In this document: piece after piece, positions 44,203 to 64,000 of the stretch
How the letters are laid out: each line of letters starts with the position of its first letter
Position numbering within the stretch: the stretch's first letter is position 1
Assembly: GCF_009937975.1 (NCBI RefSeq)
Contig: NZ_AP018442.1
Coordinates: 62,001-126,000 of the forward strand
Length of the DNA: 64,000 nucleotides
Reading direction: 5' to 3'
Source: Undibacterium sp. YM2
Lineage (GTDB): Bacteria; Pseudomonadota; Gammaproteobacteria; Burkholderiales; Burkholderiaceae_D
The notes under the pieces: generated by a model
The model's input: the letters and a program-made list of their open reading frames with translations, nothing else
Database searches by the model: none
Told to the model about the DNA's origin: nothing
Made by a program: the position numbers and the translations under genes

Positions 44203-44231
44203 TTGCGCCAATTGCACAGCAAGCGTATTAT
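44203..44231 (+). promoter_or_regulatory. Predicted sigma-70 promoter of fliH
   Basis: TTGCGC and TATTAT with 17-base spacing, 28 bases before the fliH ATG. Good match to the consensus. No FliA-type (TAAA...GCCGATAA) site is seen here. Confidence 0.5.
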
Positions 44232-44259
44232 TTGAGTGTAGAATTTAATAGGCAATACC

Positions 44260-44991
44260 ATGGCATCAATAATTCGTTCCGCAACTCTGTCTGGCCATAA
44301 GCGTACATTAGCGACGCGAGCGTCCAAGGTCAAAGCAACTGCTATTAGTGATATGCTGCCTGCTGCTAAGGTGGTTAGCCCCTCATCTGAGCCAGAGTCG
44401 TCAACCAATGCCAACCCAGCGAATAACGTAGCCGATCTTGTTGAGCAGGCGCGTCTTTCGATACTTGCACAGATCAAAGATGAAGCTGAGGCGGCTCGTG
44501 AACTTGGGCGTCAACGTGGAATGCGCGAAGGACATCAGGCAGGTCTGGAGGCAGCAAAAGCCGAATTTGTTGCTGAATTTAATCGTATCAAATCAATTGC
44601 TGACAAGTTGCCAATAGCAATTGAAACTGGGATTAAAGGGATCGAAGATCTGGCAGTAGCCATAGCATTCGAATCGATATGCAAAATCCTTGGTAATACT
44701 GTCGTGACTTTGGAAGGAGTGCAAGGTTTGGTACGGCAAGTTGCTCAAAGAGTAAGTGCCAAGGAAAAAATCATTGTGAGGGTTCACCCTTCTGATTTCA
44801 AAATTCTTGAGAGCGGTGGTGTTTTCGAAACGCAGCAGCCAAATCAATTTTTGGAGCAGGTGAGCTGGAAGGTAGATACTGACATAGAACTTGGTGGCTG
44901 TATTATTGAAACCCCGGTAGGTGATCTTGATGCAAGACTTGAAACTCAGTTAGAAAATTTGCGTTTAACACTGTTGTCTTCGCGAAGATAA
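44260..44991 (+). CDS. fliH: FliH/SctL-like export-ATPase regulator
   Basis: 243 residues. Layout matches FliH: variable N-terminus, a helical stalk with small-residue repeats (GRQRGMREGHQAGLEAAKAE), then a C-terminal domain (KIIVRVHPSDFKILESGG, VSWKVDTDIELGGCIIETPV, GDLDARLETQLENLR). FliH dimers hold the FliI ATPase and link it to the C-ring. Its usual place is between fliG and fliI; here it lies on the other strand, convergent with the operon and 20 bp from its end, next to IS debris. Confidence 0.85.
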   Translation: MASIIRSATLSGHKRTLATRASKVKATAISDMLPAAKVVSPSSEPESSTNANPANNVADLVEQARLSILAQIKDEAEAARELGRQRGMREGHQAGLEAAKAEFVAEFNRIKSIADKLPIAIETGIKGIEDLAVAIAFESICKILGNTVVTLEGVQGLVRQVAQRVSAKEKIIVRVHPSDFKILESGGVFETQQPNQFLEQVSWKVDTDIELGGCIIETPVGDLDARLETQLENLRLTLLSSRR

Positions 44992-45011
44992 GCAATTTTC
45001 CAAACATAAAT

Positions 45012-45425
45012 TTACTTCGATAATGTTTCTGTATCTGCTCTCCCCTCCAGCAGATCAGCAACGGCCTTATTTATCACTTCCAAAATTTGCGGGTCTGCTT
45101 CCATCGCATCTTGGATATCACTGACCATTTGATAAAATCCCGGATCGTTGACCAAGTTTTCTCCCAGCTCACTTAACAACACAGATTCCAAAAAAATTCT
45201 GAAAGCTTTTTTCCCTTTTTTGGGATCATCAGGATTAATTGCCTTGACTCTCAAGGAGATTAATTCTTCAATTCTTCCTGGCGCCTCAAGTTTTTTTTGC
45301 TTGCCGTCCTTTTTTATTGTCGGACTTTTCAAGGTACCTGCAGGCTTGCTTGCGGGTCTTACTTTTTTTACCATCTGCGTACGCAACAGAGTCACTATTT
45401 GGCTTACGCTATTAATCCCTGACAT
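45012..45425 (-). CDS. Conserved-looking protein at the end of the flagellar operon, 137 aa
   Basis: ATG 45425 chosen for AAAGGAC 6 bases upstream. A basic linker (KKVRPASKPAGTLKSPTIKK) precedes a helical domain (RIEELISLRVKAINPDDPKK, AFRIFLESVLLSELGENLVN, DPGFYQMVSDIQDAMEADPQ). Not recognised. Placement after fliA suggests a chaperone or regulator role, for example of the sigma factor, but nothing in the sequence proves it. Confidence 0.6.
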   Translation of the reverse strand: MSGINSVSQIVTLLRTQMVKKVRPASKPAGTLKSPTIKKDGKQKKLEAPGRIEELISLRVKAINPDDPKKGKKAFRIFLESVLLSELGENLVNDPGFYQMVSDIQDAMEADPQILEVINKAVADLLEGRADTETLSK

Positions 45426-45465
45426 TGGTCGTCCTTTGTTTTGAGGGTTATTGCTGCCTACCCTA

Positions 45466-46218
45466 TCAGAATAGCGCATCAGAAGACACAAATCCGCCAA
45501 GAGACTGATGCAACAAACTCAGTGCATTTTTATGCAATTGAGCAATCCTGCCTTTACTCAACTGTAAAGTATCTGCAATGGTATTGAAAGGTAGGTGGTT
45601 AAGGTAATGAGATTTTATGATGATCCTTTCCTTGTGTGGCAGGCGGTTAACCAGGGATCTCACTTTTTCACGTAATTGTTTTAACTCCAGGCCTGCATAA
45701 ACACTATCCTCTGAAATGGCATCCTCATGATGATAGGTAACGGGGTTTTCGAGGATGAAGCCAAAAGCAAAACTGATGGCAATCTCTGCCAATTGCTGGA
45801 AGGTATCGATTTCAGGTTCTGACAGAACCGCTTTTATAGAAAGATTACGTTCTTCCCTGAGTTGCCTGCGAATTGAGATCTGCTCGCGCTTTTCGCTCAT
45901 GTGCTCCAGGCCGTTTAATACCGATCCTTTAATGCGATGTGCCGCGAAAGTGGAAAACTGTATTAGCCTTGTATGATCGAAATGATCTACTGCTTGGATA
46001 AGCCCCAAACTGGCAAACTGCATGTATTCTTCAAACTCCAGATCGCTGTCAATGCGTTTTGCGAACAGCTTGGCTGCCAGCATGCGTGCAAATGGCAAAT
46101 AGTTTTCAATTAATTGTTGACGTGCCGACCCATCCCCAAGCCGCAAGTTTTTCCACAAACTCAATTCAGCTGATTGCAGGGCCAGGTCATCCGGTAGCAA
46201 TGCGTCTGTTTTTGGCAC
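45466..46218 (-). CDS. fliA: Flagellar sigma factor, FliA-like (sigma-28)
   Basis: 250 residues. Region 2: LIENYLPFARMLAAKLFAKR, EEYMQFASLGLIQAVDHFDH, IQFSTFAAHRIKGSVLNGLE. Region 3: MSEKREQISIRRQLREERNL. Region 4 HTH: VNRLPHKERIIIKSHYLNHL, PFNTIADTLQLSKGRIAQLH. Directs RNA polymerase to late flagellar promoters. It is at the 3' end of the operon (12 bp after fliP), unlike the usual flhF-flhG-fliA setting. Region 2 is somewhat divergent. No anti-sigma gene (flgM) is in the window. Confidence 0.88.
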   Translation of the reverse strand: MPKTDALLPDDLALQSAELSLWKNLRLGDGSARQQLIENYLPFARMLAAKLFAKRIDSDLEFEEYMQFASLGLIQAVDHFDHTRLIQFSTFAAHRIKGSVLNGLEHMSEKREQISIRRQLREERNLSIKAVLSEPEIDTFQQLAEIAISFAFGFILENPVTYHHEDAISEDSVYAGLELKQLREKVRSLVNRLPHKERIIIKSHYLNHLPFNTIADTLQLSKGRIAQLHKNALSLLHQSLGGFVSSDALF

Positions 46219-46230
46219 GTTACTTGCAAA

Positions 46231-47007
46231 CTATTGGAAAGTACCTAGTAAGGCACGTGTCACGATGTTCCAGCCGTCAATCAATACAAACATAAGTATC
46301 TTCAAAGGCAGGGAAATAGAAACGGGGGGCACCATCATCATGCCCAGTGACATGAGTATGGTTGAGACGATCAAGTCGATCAGTACAAATGGAAGAAAGA
46401 TCACAAATCCTATCTGAAAAGCCGAGCGCAATTCAGATAACATGAATGCCGGTATTAATTGAACGGTTGAAATATCATCGATGGTTTTTGGTTCCGGACT
46501 CTTGGCAATTTCTACCATCAACTGAAGATCCTGCTCCCTGGTTTGGCGTACCATGAATTCTCGTATGGGTTTTAATCCATTCTCAAATGCGGGACCTGCA
46601 GCCATTTTTCCATCCATGAAGGGTTGAAAAGCAGTTTGATTGACCTGTGTCAGCACTGGTGACATCGTAAACAAAGTCAGGAATAAAGCCAGACTGATAA
46701 GCACTGTATTTGGCGGCGTTTCCGGCATCCCAATAGCGTGCCGTAGCATGGAAAGGACGACAATGATACGGATGAATGATGTGACAGATACCAGCAAAGC
46801 AGGTGCCAGGCTCAATAAAGTCAAACCCAACAACACTTTGAGGGCTGCTGATACCTGAGTCGTTTGTGCGACATCATTCGTAATCTGCACGCCTACCCCT
46901 GGCATGGAAAGCACGTCTCCATTGGTGGCCAGGCATTGCGATGCTGTGAAACAAGCCAACAGTAGAAAAAACACTTTCAAAAAATCTGTGCGCCCTAAAT
47001 TATGCAT
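46231..47007 (-). CDS. fliP: Flagellar export gate protein FliP
   Basis: 258 residues from ATG 47007, which overlaps the fliO stop; a GTG four codons upstream is also possible. Signal peptide-like start (TDFLKVFFLLLACFTASQCL), then FliP core VTSFIRIIVVLSMLRHAIGM, QTPPNTVLISLALFLTLFTM-type segment (PETPPNTVLISLALFLTLF), IPAFMLSELRSAFQIGFVIF, LPFVLIDLIVSTILMSLGMM. Forms the export pore with FliQ and FliR. fliQ, normally next, is absent here. Confidence 0.95.
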   Translation of the reverse strand: MHNLGRTDFLKVFFLLLACFTASQCLATNGDVLSMPGVGVQITNDVAQTTQVSAALKVLLGLTLLSLAPALLVSVTSFIRIIVVLSMLRHAIGMPETPPNTVLISLALFLTLFTMSPVLTQVNQTAFQPFMDGKMAAGPAFENGLKPIREFMVRQTREQDLQLMVEIAKSPEPKTIDDISTVQLIPAFMLSELRSAFQIGFVIFLPFVLIDLIVSTILMSLGMMMVPPVSISLPLKILMFVLIDGWNIVTRALLGTFQ

Positions 47008-47431
47008 CTTTTGTCGCACTTTCTTCTTTCAACAACAAAGGGCTGCTCATCATCAATTGCACGCCTTGCGGACTTTCTGCGATAAGCAATTCTTGACCAT
47101 TATATTCAACGACGTAAAGCATGCTTGTTTTGCCCAGTCGCGTTGCTTCCACCGTTTTGACGCGGCAAGAGCTTTTGCCGGAACCGCCAAGTTTGTCACG
47201 GTATCTCTTTAGCATAAGCACAATGCCATAGGCGGCGCAAGAGGCAAGTAGCAATGCTGCGATGCTTTGATACGCCATGGACTCACTCCCTTGCCTGTCT
47301 TGCTTGAAAGGGATGGGCGCATGAGGCATGGAAGCTGATGCCTGAGCAAAAATTTCACCAGCACTTAAAAAAAACAAAGATCCCAGGCAAAACTTCAAAC
47401 ACCAGCGGTGTAGCTGCTTGTGAAACATCAT
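47000..47431 (-). CDS. fliO: FliO-like export protein
   Basis: 143 residues. Leader-like start (FCLGSLFFLSAGEIFAQASA), one transmembrane segment SIAALLLASCAAYGIVLMLK, and a small beta domain RVKTVEATRLGKTSMLYVVE then YNGQELLIAESPQGVQLM, the FliO pattern. Helps assemble FliP. ATGA overlap with fliN. Confidence 0.8.
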   Translation of the reverse strand: MMFHKQLHRWCLKFCLGSLFFLSAGEIFAQASASMPHAPIPFKQDRQGSESMAYQSIAALLLASCAAYGIVLMLKRYRDKLGGSGKSSCRVKTVEATRLGKTSMLYVVEYNGQELLIAESPQGVQLMMSSPLLLKEESATKDA

Positions 47432-47742
47432 TTTTTTTCCACTTGTGGTAACTCAGAGATTTGCACGCCAAAATTATCATCCACGGCGACTAAAATCCCT
47501 CGGGCAACAACATTACCCTCCAGTAGGACATCAACAGGCGTATCCACGGACGTATTCAATTTCAGAATATGATTTTCACGCATATTCATCAGATCACCAA
47601 TACTGACTTCTGTTTCGCCGACTCTGATCGAGAGCTTGACCTTCACGCCCTGCACCACGCCCAGATTGCCATTCAATAAGGATTGACCAGGCTCATGTGT
47701 ACTTAATTCAGATAGCTCGATGGCATGTGTGGATGAATTCAT
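47428..47742 (-). CDS. fliN: C-ring protein FliN
   Basis: 104 residues, one SpoA domain: VKLSIRVGETEVSIGDLMNM, ENHILKLNTSVDTPVDVLLE, GNVVARGILVAVDDNFGVQI. Correct length for FliN lacking the long N-terminal extension. Forms the lower C-ring with FliM and docks FliH. Confidence 0.88.
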   Translation of the reverse strand: MNSSTHAIELSELSTHEPGQSLLNGNLGVVQGVKVKLSIRVGETEVSIGDLMNMRENHILKLNTSVDTPVDVLLEGNVVARGILVAVDDNFGVQISELPQVEKK

Positions 47743-47808: not shown

Positions 47809-48603
47809 TTAATTGGACTTTACAAGTTCTATCGCGAGTGCGCCAGAAGAACTTCCGAGGTGTGCATTGCATACAGCAACATTATCGTCAGTCAAGACTT
47901 TTAAAGTGTGATCCAGCTTATTGGGCAACTTCAAAACATCGCCGATTGCCAGTGTAGCGAGATACCCCAATGTCAGCTCTGCATCACTGACTTCAACATG
48001 CAGACTAACCGGGGTATTTTTTAGTGCCGCCTTCAATGACATTAATCCCGGTTTGGGGCTTGCTGGCTGCGATTTTCTCCAATGCGAGATTGCCGCAGCG
48101 GGTAATAAGATACGCAAGGTATGATGACCAACACTGAGTTCACAAACAAGCGCGCCGGAACCAGGCCTGAACAAGTGTGCCGGGGGAGGGAAAATTGCCG
48201 TCTCTGGTAAAACTTCAAGCTGGCAAATACTACCAATAACAGCATTAATCAATTCGTCCAAAGACTCTGCAAGCACCTTGCCGGCAAGAACAGAATGCTT
48301 CCCATTTTCTGTAGTTGCATCAGCATTGCTTAATCCAAATATTGATTGTTCCAACTCGTTTTTTAGCGCGTCAGGTATGTGGAACCACGCCGTACTACCA
48401 TTCTGCAAATGTCGCTGATTACTACTACCAGACAAATCAGACAAGAAAAAATCTGCCTTGGCAGGCGTCGCCGAAGCACAAACCTGAGCACCTTTAAAAT
48501 CAATTTTCCAGGACACTGCCCATTTCGCATAGCAGTCTCCTGCAAGCTGGGAAATCGCTTTGGCAACGCTATTTTTCAGCAACAGATACGGAGATACGTT
48601 CAC
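47809..48603 (-). CDS. fliM: FliM-position SpoA-domain protein (short, atypical FliM)
   Basis: 264 residues against about 330 for normal FliM. The C-terminal SpoA domain is clear (LHVEVSDAELTLGYLATLAI, GDVLKLPNKLDHTLKVLTDD). The start (MNVSPYLLLKNSVAKAISQL) has no EIDALL-type CheY-binding motif and the middle domain is divergent (LAESLDELINAVIGSICQLE). It resembles SctQ-type proteins of type III secretion as much as FliM. Placed next to fliN. Without the N-terminal motif a CheY-driven switch seems unlikely. Confidence 0.6.
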   Translation of the reverse strand: MNVSPYLLLKNSVAKAISQLAGDCYAKWAVSWKIDFKGAQVCASATPAKADFFLSDLSGSSNQRHLQNGSTAWFHIPDALKNELEQSIFGLSNADATTENGKHSVLAGKVLAESLDELINAVIGSICQLEVLPETAIFPPPAHLFRPGSGALVCELSVGHHTLRILLPAAAISHWRKSQPASPKPGLMSLKAALKNTPVSLHVEVSDAELTLGYLATLAIGDVLKLPNKLDHTLKVLTDDNVAVCNAHLGSSSGALAIELVKSN

Positions 48604-48611
48604 TATCTCAC

Positions 48612-49784
48612 TCAGCCTTTCATATGCAATAAGGTGTCAAGCATTTGATTGGCAGTACTGATCAGCTCAGAGGATGCCTGATAACCGCGCTGGGTAATAA
48701 TGATTGCGCTGAATTCTTTGGACAAATCCACATTGGAACCTTCCAGCGCACCGCCATCTATTGTACTCAGATTGCTACTCGCGACGCCGAGGGTAACATC
48801 TTGCTGGCGCGTACTCTTGAATTTATTCCCACTGATGGGCACCAGATGATCTGTTGAACTGAAATTGGCAAGTGCCAGTGTCTGGTTCTTAGATGTTTGT
48901 CCGTTGGTATAGGTGACAACCAGCTTACCTTCTCCATCAAAACTGGTCTTGGACATATCACCCTGTGCGTATCCATCAATGTTGGAAACGGCCAGCGTTG
49001 ACGCACCAGTTGCTGCACTAGTTGTATTCGCGTCCAGCGACAAAGTAAGTGGCATCGCAGCGACACCGGCTGGTGAGTAGGTAAATGACAGTGAATTATG
49101 TGCGGAGTCCAGCGCACCATTAACAAATTTGACTTCACCCGTAGTTACAGTATCAGTACCATCCTTGATGGTCACCAGCCAACTACCGGGAGTCACCGCA
49201 TTATTATTTTTAAAATTAACAGCCAGAGTATGTGAACCACCAACTGCATCAATGACGATTACCCCGCCGACCGCTTTGTCTGTGTCAGCCGTAGATAAAC
49301 GGCCTGATAATTGTATGGTTTTGGATGCGGAAGCTGGATTGGTTTTCAATCCATCCAGACTGATATCTTGCAATACACCCTGATTTGACAATGCCTGCAC
49401 GTGATTGCCGTCGGCATCCACCAGAAAACCTTTGCTGTCAAATTTAAACGATCCATCGCGTGTATAAAATGTCTGTCCTTTGCTATCGCGCAAGACAAAA
49501 AAACCGTTACCGTCAACTGCTACGTCCAGATCATTTCCCGTCTGATTTATTTGCCCCTGAGCAAAATTAACGACACTTGGCAATGTGGCCAGGCCGGCTC
49601 CTGATGAAGCGCCCTGATGTCCACCAGTGGTGCTATTCCCTTCATGTGAAAAAAAACTGCTGAATTTCGCATTCGAGCCTTTGAATCCTGGGGTGTTCAG
49701 ATTGGCAACGTTATTACTGATAGTCTGCAACTCTTTGGAAAAGCCAGTCAATCCAGTAGTCGCAATTTTTATTGAGGTCAGCAT
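48612..49784 (-). CDS. flgE: Flagellar hook protein FlgE
   Basis: 390 residues. Starts LTSIKIATTGLTGFSKELQT, ISNNVANLNTPGFKGS (rod/hook motif), DVAVDGNGFFVLRDSKGQTF, YTRDGSFKFDSKGFLVDADG; ends LEGSNVDLSKEFSAIIITQR, GYQASSELISTANQMLDTLL. Full length with a complete variable domain, so a hook should be built. Confidence 0.95.
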   Translation of the reverse strand: MLTSIKIATTGLTGFSKELQTISNNVANLNTPGFKGSNAKFSSFFSHEGNSTTGGHQGASSGAGLATLPSVVNFAQGQINQTGNDLDVAVDGNGFFVLRDSKGQTFYTRDGSFKFDSKGFLVDADGNHVQALSNQGVLQDISLDGLKTNPASASKTIQLSGRLSTADTDKAVGGVIVIDAVGGSHTLAVNFKNNNAVTPGSWLVTIKDGTDTVTTGEVKFVNGALDSAHNSLSFTYSPAGVAAMPLTLSLDANTTSAATGASTLAVSNIDGYAQGDMSKTSFDGEGKLVVTYTNGQTSKNQTLALANFSSTDHLVPISGNKFKSTRQQDVTLGVASSNLSTIDGGALEGSNVDLSKEFSAIIITQRGYQASSELISTANQMLDTLLHMKG

Positions 49785-49807: not shown

Positions 49808-50209
49808 TTAGCGAATATCAAAAACTTGTTTGAGGGCCACGCCAGAAATATCCTGGCCAGTCGTCGGATGAATGGTCAATACAGGTGCATTGCCACTCAC
49901 TGAAATATCAGTTACCGTGCCGGTTGCTGTAGCACCACCAGTAACAACACTCACAACATGACCAAGCAAACCGACTGATTGCACTGCTGTTTGCACAGCC
50001 AATAACTGGTTGACGCTGGCAGTCAATTCCTGCGTCTGCGCTAATTGGGAAAATTGAGCAAGTTGAGCGACGAATGCGGTATTGTCCATGGGTTTTAAGG
50101 GGTCTTGTGCATTCAGTTGCGTCAACAGAATTTTTAGAAAATCCTGCTGATTAATATGAGCCTGACCATTGGTCGCAGAACTTACTGGACTTACACTGTT
50201 GAGCGCCAT
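49808..50209 (-). CDS. flgD: Hook-cap scaffold FlgD (short form)
   Basis: 133 residues; typical FlgD is about 220. The conserved N-terminal part is complete (QQDFLKILLTQLNAQDPLKP, MDNTAFVAQLAQFSQLAQTQ) with a small beta part (LLGHVVSVVTGGATATGTVT) but no FlgD Ig-like domain. The frame is intact and starts one base after fliK ends, so the short form seems genuine. Confidence 0.88.
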   Translation of the reverse strand: MALNSVSPVSSATNGQAHINQQDFLKILLTQLNAQDPLKPMDNTAFVAQLAQFSQLAQTQELTASVNQLLAVQTAVQSVGLLGHVVSVVTGGATATGTVTDISVSGNAPVLTIHPTTGQDISGVALKQVFDIR

Positions 50210-50210: not shown

Positions 50211-51239
50211 TTAACGGCCTTTCTTTACATAACTGAACGGAACATTGCGAGCACTTGCTTCATCTGACTTCACTACGGCTTCGTCACCTTGAAATATCCT
50301 TACTTCACTATCTCCATCAGTGTTTTTATATTTAAAAACAAGCTTTCCGTTAATCGTAGCACCATTCAAACGCAAGCCTGATTCAGTCATTTCCCTGGTC
50401 AATTGTCTGATTAGTTGAGGTGTTTGCTCAGTATTGATTTCCTGGTCCCTGATCCAGACATTGACGTTCTGATCTTCAGTAGTAATATGCATCATACGTT
50501 TTTGCCAAATCTGCTTATCGAGCTCTTGCTCACGCACCGCAGCCTTTGCCTCGTCAGCAGGCTCCTGGCTCTCAGCATGAACTTCGTTTTGATCCTGGGT
50601 TTGGCCTGGCAAGGTATTGCGGGACAAGCCTGCTGCACGCGGAGAAGCTGTCAGCGGCTGGGAAATTTCCATGGAACTATTTTTATTAACTGACACTTCA
50701 CCTGTGATTTTCTGAGTAAAAATAACATCCGATGTGAAAGGCAGCGTCGATCCAGCACTCGCATTCGCTTTCACATCAGGCGCAATTGCTTCCATGCCTG
50801 CGCTTTGTTTTTCAAGCTGTGCTTGTTGCTCACCTGCTGCCCTTGTTTGCGAGAGTTCTGGAGCATTTGCGCTGTCTGAAACTGTTTGTGCTACTGCAGC
50901 AATATTATCCGTGCTGATGACATGATTTTCGACACTGGCGACTTTTCTTGCCACAGGAGAAACTGGATAAACACTTCTTTTTGCCGTAGCTTGCTTTTCG
51001 CGTGATGTGGCGCTTTCCGGTAAATTATCCAGAGAAGGTATAGCGGATTTGAAAGTAGATTTTTGCGTCTGGATTGCAGTTGCGTTAAAACTGCCATGCA
51101 GATTTGCATCTTTCATCATGGACAGTTCCATTTGCCGAATCCAGTTCTCATGTTGGCTGCTCATGTCACTCTTCCCACTCTGCGCTTCACGTGTTGCGGC
51201 ATCAGGATGCACTTGCATGAATGAACTAATTTTTGTCAT
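50211..51239 (-). CDS. fliK: FliK-position protein (putative hook-length regulator)
   Basis: 342 residues from ATG 51239 that overlaps the fliJ stop (ATGA). Low-complexity Gln/Ala/Ser-rich N-terminal two thirds and a small C-terminal domain (VNVWIRDQEINTEQTPQLIR, ESGLRLNGATINGKLVFKYK). This is the FliK layout, yet the classical C-terminal signature (LxLxPxxLG) is not found. Named by position and composition. Confidence 0.55.
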   Translation of the reverse strand: MTKISSFMQVHPDAATREAQSGKSDMSSQHENWIRQMELSMMKDANLHGSFNATAIQTQKSTFKSAIPSLDNLPESATSREKQATAKRSVYPVSPVARKVASVENHVISTDNIAAVAQTVSDSANAPELSQTRAAGEQQAQLEKQSAGMEAIAPDVKANASAGSTLPFTSDVIFTQKITGEVSVNKNSSMEISQPLTASPRAAGLSRNTLPGQTQDQNEVHAESQEPADEAKAAVREQELDKQIWQKRMMHITTEDQNVNVWIRDQEINTEQTPQLIRQLTREMTESGLRLNGATINGKLVFKYKNTDGDSEVRIFQGDEAVVKSDEASARNVPFSYVKKGR

Positions 51240-51703
51240 GTTGTCTTTATCCAGTGCATACGTTGCAACCAATTATCATCAGACAATTGATATTCTTTTT
51301 TTGCAGCTTCCAGATCAAATTCATGGGCCATAGCCTCTTTATTTTTTTCCAGGTTATCTACAAACTTCCTGACTTCGTTCAATCGCCTCTGCGCATCATC
51401 GCGCACCTGCAACATTTCTTGTAACTGCATACTCTCTTGTTGTTGCTGGTTCTGCATTTGCAACATGTACATATGGGCCATGCGCTGTACATCAATATTA
51501 ATAAGGGCCTTATTCTGCCTTTGTTTGATTAACTCGGTACGGGCAGAAGCTATCGCCTGGGCAAGACTGTCAACTTTTGCTTGTTGTTCTTTTACAGATG
51601 CATTATGTCCTGCCAGCTCCTGATAGAGGTCATTGACTTCCCACTCTTTCAACTTCAAGACAGGCTCCAACCCGTATTGAAATCCCCTTCGGTCCTTGGT
51701 CAT
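51236..51703 (-). CDS. fliJ: Export chaperone-escort FliJ
   Basis: 155 residues of coiled coil (FQYGLEPVLKLKEWEVNDLY, NASVKEQQAKVDSLAQAIAS ... LNEVRKFVDNLEKNKEAMAH), as in FliJ. Start overlaps the fliI stop (ATGA). FliJ inserts into the FliI ring and contacts FlhA. Confidence 0.85.
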   Translation of the reverse strand: MTKDRRGFQYGLEPVLKLKEWEVNDLYQELAGHNASVKEQQAKVDSLAQAIASARTELIKQRQNKALINIDVQRMAHMYMLQMQNQQQQESMQLQEMLQVRDDAQRRLNEVRKFVDNLEKNKEAMAHEFDLEAAKKEYQLSDDNWLQRMHWIKTT

Positions 51704-53043
51704 TGCAGTACCCCGTCACTTTGCGTTTCTTGCTTCCCTGCATTGCACAAGATATCGCGTAATTGCACAACGACCTGCTCGCGCCCAAGTACATCTTCAT
51801 CACGCTGACGCAAAAAACTGGTCAAATGAGGCCATAGTTGAATTGCCTGATCAATCTCGGCACTGCTGCCAGCGCGATATGCACCCATGTCTATTAACTG
51901 TCGGTTGCGCTCATAGCTGGCCATATTTTCCAGAGCTTCATGCACCAAGGCCTGATCTTCAGAAGAGATTAAATCCCCCAACAAGCGACTCACGCTATGC
52001 AAAACATCAATAGCCGGGTAATGACCTTGTTGTGCCAGGCGACGGGACAACATGATGTGCCCATCCAAAGTTGCTCTCAACATGTCGGAAACCGGCTCGT
52101 TAAAGTCGTCCCCCTCGACCAGCACCGTGTACAGGGCAGTAATCGCACCACCAGACGAAGCGGTACCGCAGCGCTCACACAACTCCGGAATTTCAGCAAA
52201 AACAGAGGGCGTATAACCGCGAGCCGTTGGTGGCTCGCCTACCGACAAACCAATCTCGCGCTTTGCCATGGCAAAACGCGTCACAGAATCCATCGTCAGC
52301 ATGACTTGCTTGCCATTGTCCCGAAAATACTCAGCAATCGCAGTAGCTGCGTAGGCTGCCCTGGCACGTGCCAAGGCTGGCTGATCAGACGTAGCAACGA
52401 TCACAACAGAACGCTTGATCCCTTCTGCGCCCAAATGTTTTTCTATGAACTCGCGTACTTCACGACCACGTTCACCAATCAAGGCAATCACATTCACATC
52501 AGCAACGGTATGGCGCGAAATCATGCCTAATAAAGTACTCTTCCCTACGCCACTACCAGCAAATATGCCTACGCGTTGTCCTTTGCCTATAGTGAGCAGG
52601 CCATCAATGCAGCGCACTCCCGTTTCCAGTATCTCTTTGATACGTGGTCTGGACAGAGGATTCAGCGGCATCGCCTTCAATGGCCGGTATTCTGATGCCT
52701 GCATCAAAGGTTTTCCATCCAAAGGGTCACCAAAGGCATCAATGACACGACCGAGCAGATGCTCACCGACTGCAATGCGGGGTAATTGCCCGGTGGCCAA
52801 AACCTCACTTCCAACACCAATGCCGTGAATTTCACCATAAGGCATCAGCATCACTCGGCCATCACGCAAGCCAACTACTTCCGCTTTTATTTTATGGTCT
52901 GCGTAACGGGTACTGATTTCACAAATTTCGCCGACAAGCACATCAGGGCCTGTTGACTCAATGCTCAAACCTGCCAGCTGACGCACATGTCCCATTTTCT
53001 TTACAAAATCAGCCGCCCTGACTGCGTCGAGTATGTGCTGCAT
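51700..53043 (-). CDS. fliI: Flagellar export ATPase FliI
   Basis: 447 residues from ATG 53043 (an in-frame ATG at 53073 is possible). Walker A GIFAGSGVGKSTLLGMISRH near residue 165, Walker B QVMLTMDSVTRFAMA, plus ALIGERGREVREFIE and YPAIDVLHSVSRL. Beta-barrel N-terminus with EICEISTRY. All catalytic residues present. The interval to the fliG-slot gene (about 90 bp) is too short for fliH, which is elsewhere. Confidence 0.95.
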   Translation of the reverse strand: MQHILDAVRAADFVKKMGHVRQLAGLSIESTGPDVLVGEICEISTRYADHKIKAEVVGLRDGRVMLMPYGEIHGIGVGSEVLATGQLPRIAVGEHLLGRVIDAFGDPLDGKPLMQASEYRPLKAMPLNPLSRPRIKEILETGVRCIDGLLTIGKGQRVGIFAGSGVGKSTLLGMISRHTVADVNVIALIGERGREVREFIEKHLGAEGIKRSVVIVATSDQPALARARAAYAATAIAEYFRDNGKQVMLTMDSVTRFAMAKREIGLSVGEPPTARGYTPSVFAEIPELCERCGTASSGGAITALYTVLVEGDDFNEPVSDMLRATLDGHIMLSRRLAQQGHYPAIDVLHSVSRLLGDLISSEDQALVHEALENMASYERNRQLIDMGAYRAGSSAEIDQAIQLWPHLTSFLRQRDEDVLGREQVVVQLRDILCNAGKQETQSDGVLQ

Positions 53044-53134
53044 GATCAAACCCTGGCCTTTTGCAGTAAGCACGGATGTGCAGAAGCCTCAAGCAGCCGA
53101 GTCTGTCTGACACCATACTTTTTCTGCATCACCA

Positions 53135-56283: not shown

Positions 56284-56336
56284 CTGACATTTCCAAATTC
56301 GGTTAATCGGTATAAAACTTTTTTGCACTCATCAGC

Positions 56337-57469
56337 TTACTGGATAATCAAGTCAGCCCTTAAAGCGCCAGAGGCTTTGACTGCACGCAAGATAGAAATA
56401 ATATCCCTGGTGCTGGTCTTGATGCGGGTCAATGCCTGTATCAGATCTGCGACTGTATTATTTGAAGCACTCACAAAACCTGACTCATTTTTTTCTGAAA
56501 CATTGATGCGTGAATTTGACACTGTTTCAGTACGCACTTCTGCGGCAGTGTTTCTGACCAGTATAGGCTGTGAAACCGAATTGTCCGTGATGATGGATAA
56601 CTTAAGATCACCATGAGATACAACTACCTTCGCAATTTTTACATCTCCACCAGAGACGATGGTACCGGTTCTCTCATCGACCACTACGCGCGCCCTGGTA
56701 TCAGGTTCTATGCTGAGTTTTTCTATGCGGGTCACAAAATCAACCAGATATTCCCGGTCTGCTGCCGGTACACGAATCTCCACCCCTTCGGCATCAAGTG
56801 CTTTTGCCAGTGGTTCACCAAAGGCGGTATTGATGGCAGCAGCAATTCTTGACGAGGTCGTAAAATCTGCATCAGTCAGGGTAAAAGTCATGATGTTTTC
56901 ATTACTCATGATCTTGGCCTGTACGCCTACTTCAACTATCGCCCCAGCAGGAATAGAGCCTACAGTGGGGTGATTTTTTTGCGCCACATTCCCATTCATG
57001 TCGTATTTGTAGCCGCCAACAAACAAAGCCCCCTGCGCGAGCGCATAGACCTTGCCATTTGGCGCTTTCATTGGGGCTGTCAGCAAAGTCCCCCCACCAG
57101 GCTGCGGGCATCCCCTATGGATGTCACCGTCACATCTATGCTGTCACCCTGCCGGGCTACGGGTGGCAATTTGGCAGTGACCATGACTGCAGCAACATTA
57201 CGGCTCAAGACCAGTTCAGGCTGCACTGCGACATCAAATTGTGCCAATACATTGGCAATGGATTGGCGGGTTGCCTTGTTGTTGGGGGAATCTCCGGTAT
57301 TCGCCAGGCCAGTGACCAGGCCGTAACCCACCAGGGCATTTTCACGCCAGCCAGCAAATTTGCCAAGGTCTTTCAACCTGACAGTTTCTACAGCCGTGAC
57401 ACTACCACTCAACGCAAGGAGAATCGTGGCAAGCACTAAGGCGCGCAATTTTGAGTTAAGAAAGAACAT
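56337..57469 (-). pseudogene. flgI: P-ring protein FlgI with a single-base frameshift
   Basis: ATG 57469 shares its A with the flgH stop (TGATG). The first frame encodes a signal peptide (KLRALVLATILLALSGSVTA) and VRLKDLGKFAGWRENALVGY, GLVTGLANTGDSPNNKATRQ ... DVTVTSIGDARSLVGG; it then hits TGA. One base shift at the C6 run 57090-57095 resumes TLLTAPMKAPNGKVYALAQG to the normal end LRAVKASGALRADLIIQ. With a C7 run the protein would be about 378 residues, family length. Either a sequencing/assembly error or a recent lesion that would stop P-ring assembly. Confidence 0.92.
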
Positions 57470-58041
57470 CAAAATCCTACCCAGGTAAACAGTTTGGACC
57501 AAAATCCGGGACGTTGATGGTTCGCCAGATCACCATAGCCAGCATAGCTAATCTTGGCGTCGGCCAAACGGGTAGACAATACCGTGTTGTTATCTGCTAT
57601 ATCCAGCGGCCTTACCCGTCCTTCTACAGTAATTCTTTGCTGGTCAGAGTTAATCTCCAGGAGCTGCTGACCTCTGACCATGAGGTCACCATTATCTTCA
57701 ATACTAGTGACAGTAACGCTCATCTGTGCCAATAATTTACCGCTGCGCTGTACGCTGCCACCACCATCAAAATCATTGTTGATGGAAATGCCCGCTTTAT
57801 TACTTTTTTGGTTGACGCTCGCTTGCGCACCAATATCTGTTTTTCTTTTTAAATTGGTATCGGCATTAGAGGACGCACTGGAATTTTCGTAGATCAGGAC
57901 AGTCAATACATCGCCGGGCAAATGCGCCCGCTTGTCAGATGCCAGTGATCTGTAATTATTTTCATTGTATAAATTGTCGGCCAGCACTGCCTGTGACAGA
58001 GTGCACAACAAAAACAAGGCAAGATACAAACTCTTCTTCAT
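57469..58041 (-). CDS. flgH: L-ring protein FlgH (non-lipobox form)
   Basis: 190 residues. SLASDKRAHLPGDVLTVLIY, AQMSVTVTSIEDNGDLMVRG, QQLLEINSDQQRITVEGRVR, PLDIADNNTVLSTRLADAKI, SYAGYGDLANHQRPGFWSKL are diagnostic. The leader (MKKSLYLALFLLCTLSQAVL) ends AVLA-D with no proper lipobox (Cys at 13 follows FLL), so it is probably cleaved by signal peptidase I rather than lipidated, unlike most FlgH. Confidence 0.92.
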   Translation of the reverse strand: MKKSLYLALFLLCTLSQAVLADNLYNENNYRSLASDKRAHLPGDVLTVLIYENSSASSNADTNLKRKTDIGAQASVNQKSNKAGISINNDFDGGGSVQRSGKLLAQMSVTVTSIEDNGDLMVRGQQLLEINSDQQRITVEGRVRPLDIADNNTVLSTRLADAKISYAGYGDLANHQRPGFWSKLFTWVGF

Positions 58042-58043: not shown

Positions 58044-59018
58044 TTAATTTCCGATTACTTTCGCGACACCTGGCGCTACCACGATGGCAGCAATCGTTTC
58101 TGTCGCAGCCGCCGGGCGTACCTGTATGCGCTGGCCCACCTCACCGTTAGCCAAGGCAAGTGCCTTGGATTCAAGCAGCAATGCACCAGAACTAAACAAC
58201 AGATTGACGGTGTCACCATGGTTGATTGCGTTTGGAAGCTGCAGATAATTCTGAGTCAACGCGGTACCTGAAGGAATATTTCTTTTCAGGCTCCCCTTCA
58301 GCATGGAACAATCTGCTGGCAAGGCGGCACCATCGAGACTTGCGACGTCCATCTCCAAAACCAGCAAGTCTTCACATGCTGGTGTAATGCCCTTGAGCAA
58401 ATCCCGTTTGGCAACAAAAGTCTGCTCCATTACTTTGACTTTCAGTGGCACGCGCACCGAGCGGCTAAACATGCCCGCGACAGTAACATCCAGCCACACC
58501 GTAACCCTGGCATGCATTGCTTCCGCCCTGGTCAAATTTCGCGCCTTGATATCAACCTGACCTTCTGCCAACAACAGTTCTGGCAGGCGCTCAGCAGTTT
58601 CTACCACCACCTGGTTTTGCCCGTTGCCCAATACTTTCTTCAGATAGTTTTCAGCAGCAATAGCAAGTTGGGCGCTGTCAAAGACTTTTGCCAGGCGCTC
58701 GACTTTCACTGCATCTGCACCGCGCCACTCTATCGCTTTTACCTGCCCGCTTGCCCTGACTATGCGTTCAATCTCTTTACGGCTAAAGCGCAAACTATAA
58801 CCGGGTAGCGGTGCATTACCCATGTCAACTGCAGCCATGGTTTTCATCAGATGCTCATCCAGGTGATTGGTCTCTACATCAATTTCGACGAGGTCCACCA
58901 GCTTGACTCTTGCTGCATTCACCATCGCATCAGTCTTCAAGGACATCACCACACCTGCCATTGCAGGCATGGCAGACAATCCAAGAACAAAGAAGAAAAA
59001 GGCAAACCAGCGCATCAT
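58044..59018 (-). CDS. flgA: P-ring chaperone FlgA
   Basis: 324 residues with signal peptide (WFAFFFFVLGLSAMPAMA). C-terminal SAF/FlgA domain: TFVAKRDLLKGITPACEDLL, NIPSGTALTQNYLQLPNAIN, HGDTVNLLFSSGALLLESKA, LALANGEVGQRIQVRPAA. Longer than enterobacterial FlgA. Assists FlgI assembly in the periplasm. Confidence 0.9.
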   Translation of the reverse strand: MMRWFAFFFFVLGLSAMPAMAGVVMSLKTDAMVNAARVKLVDLVEIDVETNHLDEHLMKTMAAVDMGNAPLPGYSLRFSRKEIERIVRASGQVKAIEWRGADAVKVERLAKVFDSAQLAIAAENYLKKVLGNGQNQVVVETAERLPELLLAEGQVDIKARNLTRAEAMHARVTVWLDVTVAGMFSRSVRVPLKVKVMEQTFVAKRDLLKGITPACEDLLVLEMDVASLDGAALPADCSMLKGSLKRNIPSGTALTQNYLQLPNAINHGDTVNLLFSSGALLLESKALALANGEVGQRIQVRPAAATETIAAIVVAPGVAKVIGN

Positions 59019-59028: not shown

Positions 59029-59802
59029 TTAGCGGCGCAGATTATTAGTCAAAGACATCATCTCATCAGATGCCTGGACTATTTTTGAGCTCATTTCATA
59101 TGCACGCTGAGCTATCATCAAGGTCACCATCTCGTCTACCAAAGAGACGTTCGACCCTTCCAGCGTATTTTGGGCAATCGCACCAAAGCCTGCCGCACCC
59201 GGTTTACCATAAGTGGCTTCGCCAGAGTTTGCACTTGGTTGATAAATCCCGCTGGCGACCATTTTCAGGCCTGCAGGATTTGAAAAGTTCACCAGTTCAA
59301 TTTGCCCCACTTCGGATACCTGAGACTGATCTCCTGTCTGCACCATGATTTTGCCATCAGTGCCTATCGTAATACCCGTCACATTTTGTGGCATATGAAT
59401 ACCTGGCCTCAATACCTGCCCACTACTGGTTGCCAGATAAGAATCCTGATTGACTTGCAAAGTGCCACCGCGTGTATAGCCACGGCTACCATCTGCCAGC
59501 GTCACCTCGATAAAACCACTGCCATTGATGGCGATATCCATCGGCGAATTGGTTTGTGTCAGGGCCCCAGCAACAAAATCTCTGGACACATTTTCGATAC
59601 CGATACCCAAGCCAACCGGATTGAGCGTAGCCGAAGGATTCTGTGCCGAGGCACTTCCATCGACATGCATCATTTCTTGAAAATTCACACGGCCCTTCTT
59701 GAAGCCAGAGGTATTCACATTCGTCAGATTATTGGCAATAGTATCGATACTCATCTGCTGAGCCTGCATGCCAGTCGCTGCGATATAGAGAGAATTATTC
59801 AT
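59029..59802 (-). CDS. flgG: Distal rod protein FlgG
   Basis: 257 residues. AATGMQAQQMSIDTIANNLT, NVNTSGFKKGRVNFQEMMHV, DIAINGSGFIEVTLADGSRG, YTRGGTLQVNQDSYLATSSG and NTLEGSNVSLVDEMVTLMIA, QRAYEMSSKIVQASDEMM. Complete. Confidence 0.94.
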   Translation of the reverse strand: MNNSLYIAATGMQAQQMSIDTIANNLTNVNTSGFKKGRVNFQEMMHVDGSASAQNPSATLNPVGLGIGIENVSRDFVAGALTQTNSPMDIAINGSGFIEVTLADGSRGYTRGGTLQVNQDSYLATSSGQVLRPGIHMPQNVTGITIGTDGKIMVQTGDQSQVSEVGQIELVNFSNPAGLKMVASGIYQPSANSGEATYGKPGAAGFGAIAQNTLEGSNVSLVDEMVTLMIAQRAYEMSSKIVQASDEMMSLTNNLRR

Positions 59803-59850: not shown

Positions 59851-60594
59851 TTAAAACTCACCCAATTTTTGTATCGCCGTATTCAACATCTCATCATAGC
59901 CTTGAAATAATTTTTGCGCTGATTCAAAATGACGGGTGGTTTCCATCATCGCCACCATTTCGCGCATGGGCGTAACATTCGAGCTCTCCAAAAAACCCAC
60001 CTGTATTTCCGATTTGCTTTCTACTGCCTTATTGTCTGCGTTTGCAGACTGCAATAAGCCATTCGCCGTTTTTACCACATTCTTTGCATCTGCAAATTGC
60101 ATGATTTTCAGTTGAGCAATCTGGGTTTCACCCTGCATGATACGACCGGCATGATCAATACTGACATCATTGCCACGCACTTGTATGTCGCCCCCCAAAC
60201 CCTGCACGGCATAGCCTTGCGCCGACACCAGGCGACCAGTGCCATCCACATGAAAATTCCCGGCCCTGCTATAGGCCAGCCCTTCAGGCGTCATCAGCTC
60301 AAAATAACCATCGCTGGCGATTGCCAGATCCCAAGGCTTGCCGGTTTGCTTGATCGCTCCAGTTGACAGGTCAAGCACGTTACCCAGCGCATTTGATTTT
60401 TCTGTCTGGCTTACATTAGCAACTTGTTCTGACTCCTTCATGACTTCGTCAAAAAGCCTGGTCAGCGGTTTGGATGTCGGTATCGCGCGCTTATAGCCAG
60501 GCGTAGCCACATTCACCATATTCTGGCTCACGATGTCCATATACTGCAGATCATTTTGCATGCTCTGTACAGCGGTAATTAATGCATTTGCCAT
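59851..60594 (-). CDS. flgF: Rod protein FlgF
   Basis: 247 residues from ATG 60594; an in-frame TTG three codons earlier is less likely. ALITAVQSMQNDLQYMDIVS, QNMVNVATPGYKRAIPTSKP, DLAIASDGYFELMTPEGLAY, SRAGNFHVDGTGRLVSAQGY and the end LESSNVTPMREMVAMMETTR. A 110-bp gap separates it from flhA, the widest gap in the operon. Confidence 0.9.
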   Translation of the reverse strand: MANALITAVQSMQNDLQYMDIVSQNMVNVATPGYKRAIPTSKPLTRLFDEVMKESEQVANVSQTEKSNALGNVLDLSTGAIKQTGKPWDLAIASDGYFELMTPEGLAYSRAGNFHVDGTGRLVSAQGYAVQGLGGDIQVRGNDVSIDHAGRIMQGETQIAQLKIMQFADAKNVVKTANGLLQSANADNKAVESKSEIQVGFLESSNVTPMREMVAMMETTRHFESAQKLFQGYDEMLNTAIQKLGEF

Positions 60595-60704
60595 AGCGCT
60601 CAATTCAGCCTAAAAAATAATCCAGATATTCGATCCAAAGAATCAGTTCAAAGAATCAATTCAAACAAGCGGATTTCAACAACTTACTAAAATTTACTAA
60701 ACAC

Positions 60705-62774
60705 TTACAAAGACAAAGTCGCAAACGCACGCAACTCCAGCGTGTTGGGTACTTCTGCCAGCGACAATACCCGCAATTGCGGCACCATGCGCTCTGATAA
60801 AACCCGCATATGCCGTCTTAATTCAGGGGCGCACAACAAAACGGGCAACAGGTTGCTCTTCATCATTTTTTCTGCATGCTTGGCAACGCCAGTGATCACT
60901 TGCTCGGCAAATTTAGGTTCCACCACCATGGCTGCACCATTTTCCACCGCCCGTATGCTCTGCATCAGATTGTGTTCTATCGTCGGATCCAGCGTCAATA
61001 CTTGTAATACATTCGTGCCCTGTGTCAATGACTGACAAATCAATGCTCCTAAACGCTGCCTAACCATTTCAGTCAGATAAGCAGTATCTTTATTAATCTT
61101 GGCAGTATCAACAATGGTTTCTATTACGGCATCCAGATTGCGGATAGAAACTTTTTCCTTCAATAAATTCTGCAAGACTTTTTGTATTTCACCCACGCCC
61201 AGCACTGTAGGCACAACCTCTTCCACCAGACCAGGTTGCGACTCACGCACACGTTTTAACAAGCGTTCAGTTTCCTGGCGCGTCAGCAAAGTGGCAGACT
61301 GCTGTCGCAATACCTCGCACAAATGCGTCATGAAGACTGTTGGTGGCTCTACCAGGGTGTACTTGCCAGCTCTTGCCTCATCCCTCAGCATGTCATCTAT
61401 CCACAGCGCAGGTAAACCATAGCTGGGCTCCTTGGTTTCCACACCTTGCAACTTGATAGTCTCAGTTGCTGGTTTAATTGCCAGCAACTTGTCCAGCACC
61501 AGGCTGCCACCTGCGATAGTCACACCAAAAATCACAATCTCATAGGCATTGGCCGCAAGCCTGGCACCTTCACGGAAACGGATATTTGGCACCACCAGGC
61601 CAGACTCCAAAGCATATTGCTTACGAAAAGCTGCGATACGCTCGGTAAAAATAATGCGTTCACTCTCCAGCATGGGGATCAAGTCCACACCCAGCAATAC
61701 CTCAGCTGCCTCCATAGGCAACAAACCATAGGCATCCTGCTCTTTGTCTGAAGACTTGGCGCCGGTACCAAGTGGTGCTTCGGCATCATCGCCCTGCACA
61801 TCACTGCCCTCACCCTGGTTAGTGTCACCACGGCGAAAAGCAATTAATGCGAGATAAAAACAAACCAGCACCAACACCGGCCACGCCGGGATGCCGGGCA
61901 AAAACACCAGCCCCAGCAATGCTGCCGCCACCAACCACAAGGTTTTGGTGAATGAGGTGATTTGCTGAAACGCCACTACACCCAGATTGGTATCGGACGA
62001 AGAGCGCGTCACAATCAAACCCGTGCCTACAGAAATAATCAAGGCAGGCACTTGCGTCACAATACCGTCACCAATAGTCAGCAAGGTATAACTCTTTAAA
62101 GCCTGATCCCAGCGCATGCCCATTTGCATCACACCTATCACCAGGCCACCAACACAATTAATCAGCATGATGATGATACCCGCAATGGCGTCACCCTTCA
62201 CAAACTTGCTGGCACCATCCATGGCACCGTAAAAGGCGGCTTCTTTGCTGATATTCTTGCGGCGGCGCTGGGCTTCTTCCTGGTCGATGAAACCCATGTT
62301 CAAATCAGCATCGATACTCATTTGCTGACCTGGCATACTATCCAGTGTAAAGCGAGCAGCCACTTCCGACACCCGCTGCGCACCATTCGTTACCACGACA
62401 TACTGAACGACGACCAGGATCAAGAAGACGATTAGGCCAATCACATAATTGCCGCCCACCACATAAGAACCAATCGCACCAATCACCCTGCCAGCGTCAG
62501 CATCGCGCAAAATAAGGCGCGTGGCAGAAATATTCAGGGCCAGTCGGAACAAAGTTGCCACCAGTAACATCGATGGGAAAGTAGAAAACTCGACCGGCTT
62601 TGCCATGTAAAAGGTCAACAGCAAAATCAGCAATGCAAAACTGAAGTTTGTCAGTATCAAAAAATCCAGCATCTCTGCTGGTATAGGTGCAAACAACATA
62701 AACAACACACCCACCACCAGCAAAACCATTGCAATGTCGGTGTTTTTCTGCAAAACCTGTCTCAACGAATTCAT
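60705..62774 (-). CDS. flhA: Export gate protein FlhA
   Basis: 689 residues, full length. Eight hydrophobic segments in the first 330 residues, FHIPEP-type region SMPGQQMSIDADLNMGFIDQ, EEAQRRRKNISKEAAFYGAM, DGASKFVKGDAIAG; large cytoplasmic domain to the end. Export gate ring; ATGA overlap with flhB. Confidence 0.96.
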   Translation of the reverse strand: MNSLRQVLQKNTDIAMVLLVVGVLFMLFAPIPAEMLDFLILTNFSFALLILLLTFYMAKPVEFSTFPSMLLVATLFRLALNISATRLILRDADAGRVIGAIGSYVVGGNYVIGLIVFLILVVVQYVVVTNGAQRVSEVAARFTLDSMPGQQMSIDADLNMGFIDQEEAQRRRKNISKEAAFYGAMDGASKFVKGDAIAGIIIMLINCVGGLVIGVMQMGMRWDQALKSYTLLTIGDGIVTQVPALIISVGTGLIVTRSSSDTNLGVVAFQQITSFTKTLWLVAAALLGLVFLPGIPAWPVLVLVCFYLALIAFRRGDTNQGEGSDVQGDDAEAPLGTGAKSSDKEQDAYGLLPMEAAEVLLGVDLIPMLESERIIFTERIAAFRKQYALESGLVVPNIRFREGARLAANAYEIVIFGVTIAGGSLVLDKLLAIKPATETIKLQGVETKEPSYGLPALWIDDMLRDEARAGKYTLVEPPTVFMTHLCEVLRQQSATLLTRQETERLLKRVRESQPGLVEEVVPTVLGVGEIQKVLQNLLKEKVSIRNLDAVIETIVDTAKINKDTAYLTEMVRQRLGALICQSLTQGTNVLQVLTLDPTIEHNLMQSIRAVENGAAMVVEPKFAEQVITGVAKHAEKMMKSNLLPVLLCAPELRRHMRVLSERMVPQLRVLSLAEVPNTLELRAFATLSL

Positions 62775-63871
62775 GCAAATGCTCCGCGCACCGTGCTAGC
62801 TTTGCTTTGATTGCGATTTTTACGCATCGCGTATACCCAGATCAAAATCTTGGCTACCTTGGGATACATATCCTCAGGTACAAATTGGTCCGAGTTCAAA
62901 CGCTTGTATAACTCCCGCGCCAAAGGAGGGTTTTCAACCACTGGAATATTATGCTGCCTGGCTGCTGCACGCATCTTGGCTGCCAGCTCCCCTTTACCCT
63001 TGACCAACAACTTAGGTGCAGGCATCTCGCCATGGCGATAAGAAATAGCAACGGCAATATGAGTAGGATTGGTGATCAACACATCGGCTTCTGGCAATTT
63101 GCCAACCGCCTGCGATTGCTTCAACAATTCTGCCCGCAACTGCTTAATCCTTTGGCGTATACGCGGATCACCTTCCCTTTGCTTATGTTCGTCGCTGATA
63201 TCTTTATGACTCATGCGCATTTTCTTGGCAAATTCCCACCGCGTATACAGCAAGTCGATTAACGCGATCACCAAAATCGCCATAAACAACTTAAACAACA
63301 CAGGCCCGATCGCAGCAAGTGCGATAGCCGCATGGCCGTGCGCATCGATGTAGCCCAGTTTTACCAATTCAGGCATCAAATGTACCAGTGCACCACAGGC
63401 CACGTACCCCAATATCGATAACTTCACCAGACTGCGCAAAGCATCGTAAATCAAACGCTTGGAAAACAGACGTTGCAAACCAGTAGCAGGGTTTAACTTG
63501 GTAAAATCAGGTGTCACTGGATCAAAACTAAAAATACCCCCAACCTGACTCACGTTCACCAATATGGCCGCAATGCAAATGGCAATCAACAAAGGTGCAA
63601 TAACCGCCACGCTTTCCATGCTCGCCTGCGTCAGCCACTGCAAAGTACCAACACTGGACCAGTCACTACGGCCTGCATCCCGCATAATCTGCTGCGCAAG
63701 ACCCAGTTCCTTCCTGGCCATACCTGGCCCAGCCGCAAAGAAAATACCAACCAAAGCTGCTAAAATTGCAGCAAAATTGGCTTCCGTACTCTTGGCAACC
63801 TGCCCCTTCTTTTGCGCCTCGCGCAGTTTATGGGGCGTGGCTTCCTGGCTTTTGTCAGCATCCTCAGACAT
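62771..63871 (-). CDS. flhB: Export specificity switch FlhB
   Basis: 366 residues. EDADKSQEATPHKLREAQKK, GQVAKSTE at the N-terminus, four membrane segments, and the autocleavage site NPTH at 268-271 (DVLITNPTHIAVAISYRHGE). Start lies one base from the fliR stop. The presence of NPTH and a cytoplasmic C-domain implies normal rod/hook-to-filament switching. Confidence 0.96.
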   Translation of the reverse strand: MSEDADKSQEATPHKLREAQKKGQVAKSTEANFAAILAALVGIFFAAGPGMARKELGLAQQIMRDAGRSDWSSVGTLQWLTQASMESVAVIAPLLIAICIAAILVNVSQVGGIFSFDPVTPDFTKLNPATGLQRLFSKRLIYDALRSLVKLSILGYVACGALVHLMPELVKLGYIDAHGHAAIALAAIGPVLFKLFMAILVIALIDLLYTRWEFAKKMRMSHKDISDEHKQREGDPRIRQRIKQLRAELLKQSQAVGKLPEADVLITNPTHIAVAISYRHGEMPAPKLLVKGKGELAAKMRAAARQHNIPVVENPPLARELYKRLNSDQFVPEDMYPKVAKILIWVYAMRKNRNQSKASTVRGAFA

Positions 63872-64000
63872 TTACAAAATGTCCTCCCAATATCCAAACA
63901 ACGCTCCGAACACCTTGGTAGCAACAGACGCAAAATGACCGCTGACATACGCCAGCACAGACAAGCCAACCACAATCTTGATTGGTACACTGAGCATAAA
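63872..64000 (-). CDS. fliR: FliR C-terminus (partial, runs off the right edge)
   Basis: The last 42 codons read MLSVPIKIVVGLSVLAYVSG, HFASVATKVFGALFGYWEDI, L, the FliR pattern P-x-K with a final membrane helix. Stop TAA abuts the flhB ATG. The fliR-flhB order is that of many flagellar loci; fliQ may lie just outside. Confidence 0.8.
   Translation of the reverse strand, partial: FMLSVPIKIVVGLSVLAYVSGHFASVATKVFGALFGYWEDIL

Follow-up and report, generated by a model that had tools for sequence, protein, structure and literature searches.

A candidate non-rotating, flagellum-derived export apparatus linked to giant toxin-like proteins in Undibacterium sp. YM2 and its relatives

The 64,000-nucleotide window analysed here, bases 62001-126000 of contig C2 (175,363 bp) from the two-contig, 6.66-Mb genome of Undibacterium sp. 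YM2, holds a flagellar gene cluster in which a gene for a protein of 169-170 residues, X169, lies between fliF and fliI. Judging by its size, C2 is presumably a plasmid. Comparisons of sequence lead us to read this cluster, with a probability of about 0.72, as encoding a non-rotating, flagellum-derived type III apparatus that would export giant polymorphic toxins or adhesins.

In the arrangement that we propose, the MS ring (FliF), the rod, the P and L rings, the hook, the gate (FlhA, FlhB, FliP, FliQ and FliR) and the ATPase would have been kept, and FliG would have shrunk to a 169-residue adaptor that could still link the tail of FliF with a short ring of FliM and FliN. This reduced ring may now serve as a static cargo-sorting platform. 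The apparatus would secrete giant proteins encoded next to it, recognised via a shared N-terminus (MVAIV.G..LGL), and neighbouring tetratricopeptide repeat (TPR) proteins as well as a small helical protein, X162, may aid export in many species. Export of the giants by the cluster would be the simplest account of their co-occurrence, of the shared N-terminus and of the chaperone-like genes. Antagonism between bacteria is the likely use because the C-termini of the giants vary, some carry toxin domains and a small open reading frame (ORF), a candidate immunity gene, lies downstream; giants rich in repeats, such as the 12,948-residue protein of YM2 itself, would instead act in adhesion.

Gene content of the cluster across loci

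Among 392 genomes of the host's family, representing 44 genera, X169 was found in 43 genomes from 15 genera, and a profile search recovered the same 43, all at an E-value of 3e-20 or better. We compared 40 loci, i.e. that of YM2 and those of 39 of the 42 other X169 genomes (G034, G088 and G375 were left out). In every one of them the X169 frame lies on the strand of fliF, ends at most 900 nt after it and precedes the end of fliI. The protein is under constraint, with dN/dS values of 0.04 to 0.48 in eight pairs.

All 40 loci also carry fliF, fliI, fliE, flgB, flgC, flgE, flgF, flgG, flgH and flgI; fliJ (32/40), fliK (27/40) and fliO (34/40) are harder to recognise, and part of the misses coincide with the end of a stretch or contig. 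Conversely, single-sequence searches with FliG, FliC, FlgK, FlgL, FliD, MotA, MotB, FliL, FlgJ, FlgN, FlhF and FlhG from the YM2 chromosome matched in none of the 40 loci. Such queries may let remote forms escape. The apparatus is very probably non-rotating: of the three alternatives put forward in the original prediction, the non-rotating hook-basal-body secretion structure is favoured because the family is conserved, queries for FliG, stator, flagellin and filament-cap proteins matched in none of the 40 loci, and the giants, as likely cargo, are tied to the cluster.

Specialisation as a second flagellum, another of these alternatives, fares worse. A rotor that borrowed chromosomal FliG, stator and flagellin could find them: FliG_C occurs elsewhere in 39 of the 43 X169 genomes (4/43 lack it), which weighs against our reading, and the other, large contig of YM2 carries a separate flagellum that reads as complete and ordinary, with a FliG of 331 and a FliM of 333 residues (FliG, flagellin-type, MotA and FlhA genes assigned by family searches, the rest by visual inspection of gene order and sequence). 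A search for a full FliG or MotAB directly after the window, and for fliG, motAB and flagellin in the whole genome, found FliG_C (one match), Flagellin_N (two) and MotA_ExbB (eight) solely on that other contig. Borrowing is nevertheless very improbable, since G039, a 98% complete genome, has no FliG_C match and its sole FlhA is that of the cluster, since a conserved short protein occupies the place of fliG, and since flgK, flgL and fliD are found in 0/40 loci.

The identity of X169 is best explained as a FliG cut down to its N-terminal and middle parts, the torque-generating C-domain being gone. The protein shows no match to the Pfam FliG_N, FliG_M or FliG_C models at E-values up to 1, and no Pfam cut-off is reached for FliG N plus middle. 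A profile comparison with FliG gave E 9e-4 at a probability of only 22.5% (hhalign, 30 closely related FliGs), all five matches of a PDB sequence search were FliG at weak E-values of 0.4-1.3, and the 13 best structural rows for its AlphaFold2 (AF2) model were FliG or C-ring entries, with Foldseek E-values of 0.44 and above. The model has a single ARM-like domain after its N part, and 169 residues lack the room for a full-length FliG with middle and torque domains. Two points count against this assignment, and with it against our reading as a whole: the likeness to FliG is weak in each comparison alone, and five of the 13 FliG fold rows align with the C-domain of FliG and not with its middle domain, so that the fold alone cannot tell which half of FliG was retained.

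Two further proteins are as short as was first noted. The FliM-position protein (264 residues) holds an SPOA domain alone, at its end, and among 24 of its homologues FliMN_C was found in all and the FliM middle domain PF02154 in none at E-values up to 0.1; FlgD (133 residues) consists of the FlgD N-domain alone. Otherwise, the parts expected of a hook-basal body with its export gate are there (FliF, the rod, the rings, the hook, FlhAB and FliPQR). The rod, rings, hook and gate had been called complete, which holds for the gate, since fliR and fliQ finish it just beyond the window, but not for flgI. Here, the claim of intact frames failed: the gene is split into 57080-57502 and 56337-57086, whereas in G259, a close relative with an 18.8-kb stretch 94% identical to the YM2 cluster, it forms one frame of 388 residues. 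The split is either real damage or an assembly error.

This frameshift, together with a transposase gene that adjoins fliQ and separates it from the giant gene, weighs against our reading and suits the idea that the cluster is a decaying flagellar relic. We find that idea scarcely credible for the system at large, as the same composition recurs in 40 loci, dN/dS stays below 0.5 and the cluster is kept across 15 of 44 genera. The copy in the window itself may be damaged, and decay may be true of that copy alone.

Giant proteins linked to the cluster

Beyond fliQ, a transposase gene and a gene for a 363-residue PT-HINT protein are followed by a giant gene, outside the window at C2:129783-168629 on the minus strand, with one uninterrupted frame of 12,948 codons. 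Its product begins with MVAIVNGQGLGANLN. Eleven giant N-termini of this type that we aligned share 20 invariant columns. The longest open frame, in G107, has 15,898 codons, and to our knowledge these frames are among the longest predicted bacterial proteins. The PT-HINT gene lies directly downstream of the giant gene (L002:2580-3671, where L002:3783 corresponds to C2:129783).

A domain scan covering 9,280 of the 12,948 residues revealed RHS repeats near the N-terminus (the only Pfam matches in the first 876 residues), followed by Ig-like, cadherin-like, dockerin-like, PT-HINT and ice-binding-like adhesive domains. In relatives, the giants combine the conserved N-terminus with an exchangeable C-terminal toxin domain. 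Of 20 C-termini of our own choosing, five have a known toxin or lysis domain above the Pfam cut-off (CDI EC869-like nuclease, CdiA-CT RNase A, metallopeptidase toxin 4, Ntox50 and N-acetylmuramidase), two have PT-HINT and three have RHS repeats or sub-threshold matches. In 17 of the 20, an ORF of at least 60 residues starts no more than 24 nt past the last sense codon of the giant. Judging from these frames, the giants and the small ORFs behind them are arranged like polymorphic toxins and their immunity genes, which makes the ORFs candidates for immunity.

Two findings run counter to our reading: ten of the 20 C-termini gave no Pfam match, and at the end of the YM2 giant stand adhesive domains of the cadherin-like and ice-binding-like kinds, with no toxin end found. 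The second of these fits a flagellum-derived organelle for giant adhesins, in which the giants would be exported and kept on the hook for attachment or biofilm formation and toxin ends would be incidental. The Ig-like, cadherin-like and ice-binding-like domains of the YM2 protein speak for such an organelle, as does the scanned end of the G107 giant, whose single match is a sub-threshold one to DUF642. We consider it unlikely, in view of the five toxin or lysis ends, the two further PT-HINT ends and the small ORF within 24 nt in 17/20.

The association of giants with the cluster is close. A profile of the giant N-terminus matches 52 of the 392 family genomes, including all 43 with X169 (in the drafts G060, G228 and G252, as a short giant piece alone on its contig). 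Giant N-terminus and X169 share a contig in 31/43 genomes, lie at most 54 kb apart in 28/43 and are within 51 kb of each other in 10/10 genomes with contigs of at least 5 Mb. In G288, from the same genus, the giant gene lies at position 58823 of the second contig (135,601 bases). In a class-wide sample, the strong matches outside the family were G612, G656 and G692, all with X169, and in G612 and G656 the cluster adjoins the giant. A second sample of 50 genomes picked by the giant N-terminus alone, two of them repeated from the first, contained X169 in 40, including two Pseudomonas genomes at E-values of about 1e-9. Among the genera found to carry the giant N-terminus are Variovorax, Massilia, Collimonas, Ramlibacter, Roseateles, Trinickia and Pandoraea. 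In Burkholderia ubonensis, a conjugative plasmid holds the cluster next to two TPR genes and a giant, the genes being labelled flagellar, type III, TPR or hypothetical in the annotation.

Several results temper this picture. The p-value for co-occurrence, 7.5e-49, comes from a test that ignores relatedness. Nine of the 52 giant-bearing family genomes lack X169: four have short or broken frames and three are drafts of 68-92% completeness, which leaves G349 and G031 with long frames. Ten of the 50 genomes in the second sample lack it as well, three of them (L326, L331 and L348) with cluster genes near the giant. Lastly, the TPR partner proteins were not matched on the contig of the window. The long frames in G349 and G031 would suit giants that leave the cell by some other means and just happen to lie in one genomic island with the cluster, all the more as RHS proteins are known cargo of type VI secretion in the parts of the literature consulted. 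As judged from the cluster and the giants, without a search for other secretion systems in these genomes, such a route is quite unlikely, considering the 43/43 co-occurrence and close linkage. Moreover, the giants are conserved at the N-terminus and variable at the C-terminus, unlike proteins with a C-terminal type I signal, and in the first 876 residues of the YM2 giant Pfam recognises RHS repeats alone.

Separately, the records L325, L328 and L340 show giant N-termini in Microvirga massiliensis and Kribbella catacumbae, in genomes without X169; that of M. massiliensis stands beside a fliF and a motB, both canonical in type. Transfer, another host range or contamination could each explain them.

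TPR proteins of about 200 and 390 residues recur around the cluster, in groups spanning 24 and 22 of the 40 loci, respectively, and homologues of X162 occur in 31/40. Pairs of X162 and TPR genes precede giants even where the examined flank contains no flagellar genes (e.g. L293, L297, L300, L308 and L327), which suggests that they are chaperones of the cargo and makes X162 a candidate chaperone. X162 itself belongs to no Pfam or NCBIfam family and has no clear PDB match. The window also encodes two adjacent large TPR_12 proteins (537 and 610 residues; 29514-33040) that do not match the TPR queries of the cluster.

Relation to flagella and injectisomes

A 64-row FlhA/SctV tree unites the 41 rows from the X169 cluster in a single clade (100/100), which falls among the flagellar FlhAs and away from the three rows named SctV by NCBIfam. 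The window's protein scored 752.6 bits against the NCBIfam FlhA model (cut-off 772.1) and 584.4 bits against SctV (cut-off 692), so that an SctV-type export gate was rejected on both score and tree position. Nor does the tree support the last of the three alternatives, a stage between flagellum and injectisome. Having its own clade among flagellar FlhAs, the cluster seems to have arisen from the flagellum separately.

With flagella, the cluster shares FliF, FliE, the FlgB-C-F-G rod, the FlgH/FlgI rings, the FlgE hook, FlhA/B, FliP/Q/R and FliH/I; it differs in that FliG-C, stator, flagellin, FlgK/L and FliD are not recognised and FliG, FliM and FlgD are short. If our reading is right, it would resemble injectisomes in combining an export gate and ATPase with a torque-free FliM/FliN-like ring and dedicated cargo, and X169 would presumably match SctK by its place, the short FliM SctQ. 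Unlike injectisomes, it has a rod, a hook and P and L rings, and its FlhA does not group with SctV.

The portions of Abby and Rocha (2012, PMC3459982) drawn on here describe injectisomes as monophyletic and the outcome of a single exaptation of the flagellum, and suggest that flagellar systems were exapted several times to secrete unrelated proteins. They also propose secretion by the basal bodies of Buchnera and other reduced flagella, without describing dedicated cargo there; the X169 cluster, by comparison, is kept in several genera and goes together with a family of presumed cargo proteins. As for the giants, RHS repeats and PT-HINT in the YM2 protein and exchangeable toxin ends with small ORFs in its relatives recall polymorphic toxins, including those of contact-dependent inhibition (CDI) and the RHS family, from which the giants differ in their conserved N-terminus and in frames of up to 15,898 codons. 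Zhang et al. (2012, PMC3482391) count type III secretion among the ways out for some toxin domains, propose it for one Shewanella protein and ask whether a Clostridium RNase exits via the flagellum; the sections of that paper used here do not mention a system of the X169 type. Our literature search found no description of an X169-giant system.

If our reading holds, the steps of a second conversion, i.e. loss of FliG-C, stator and filament and gain of cargo, could be compared with those of the first. It would also provide an export route for a giant toxin-like protein family, hint at type III secretion from one bacterium to another and probe the maximum chain length for a type III channel. We put it at even odds that the cluster represents a third kind of type III machine beside flagellum and injectisome: an interbacterial weapon whose motor was lost independently, with a shortened FliG as static adaptor, exchangeable toxin warheads and a hook-basal body that would let single chains of thousands to nearly 16,000 residues pass.

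Features of the window

On the minus strand, from right to left, the gene order is fliQ, fliR, flhB, flhA, flgF, flgG, flgA, flgH, flgI, flgB, flgC, fliE, fliF, X169, fliI, fliJ, fliK, flgD, flgE, fliM, fliN, fliO, fliP, a sigma factor gene and X162; fliH lies on the plus strand and is convergent to them. As originally described, many neighbours overlap by a few bases. Coordinates are those of the window unless marked C2.

44260..44991, plus: fliH, convergent to the main operon (Pfam FliH, E 6.4e-11)
45012..45500, minus: X162, helical protein; a later start at 45422 is likely; conserved motif KAFRxFLESVLL..G..L.NDP
45466..46218, minus: sigma factor of the FliA/WhiG kind (Pfam Sigma70_r2 and r4 above cut-off, NCBIfam FliA_WhiG below)
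46231..47019, minus: fliP, export gate (Pfam, E 5.3e-76)
47000..47431, minus: fliO (Pfam, E 7.6e-6)
47428..47742, minus: fliN, SPOA (Pfam FliMN_C, E 1.9e-19)
47809..48603, minus: short fliM, 264 residues, SPOA domain only, at its end
48612..49784, minus: flgE, hook protein (Pfam)
49808..50209, minus: short flgD, 133 residues, N-domain only (Pfam, E 1.1e-19)
50211..51272, minus: fliK-position protein, named by position alone (no Pfam or NCBIfam family; homologues in 27/40 loci)
51236..51703, minus: fliJ (TIGR02473, E 8.6e-6, below cut-off)
51700..53073, minus: fliI, export ATPase (Pfam, E 8.2e-90)
53135..53644, minus: X169, a reduced FliG as best reading (profile, PDB and fold comparisons)
53644..55128, minus: fliF, MS ring (Pfam, E 3e-59)
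55140..55469, minus: fliE (Pfam)
55466..55903, minus: flgC, rod (Pfam rod domains)
55900..56328, minus: flgB, rod (Pfam rod domain)
56337..57086, minus: flgI, P ring, C-terminal part past the frameshift (Pfam FlgI positions 101-343)
57080..57502, minus: flgI, P ring, N-terminal part ahead of the frameshift (Pfam FlgI positions 1-98)
57469..58041, minus: flgH, L ring (Pfam, E 1e-46)
58044..59018, minus: flgA, P-ring chaperone (Pfam ChapFlgA, E 1.6e-17)
59029..59802, minus: flgG, rod (Pfam FlgE/F/G domains)
59851..60603, minus: flgF, rod (Pfam FlgE/F/G domains)
60705..62774, minus: flhA, export gate (Pfam, E 4e-236)
62771..63871, minus: flhB, export gate switch (Pfam, E 5e-106)
63872..64000, minus: fliR, crossing the window end and running on to C2:126639
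C2:126640-126909, minus: fliQ, after fliR, beyond the window

The tails of 40 FliF homologues are short and carry a conserved Trp motif. Elsewhere in the window, two frames of 230 residues (3854-4546 and 14044-14736), whose first 70 residues are identical, look like transposases by eye, and this plasmid-like contig also carries a methyltransferase gene of the ubiE/COQ5 type at 21367-22143.

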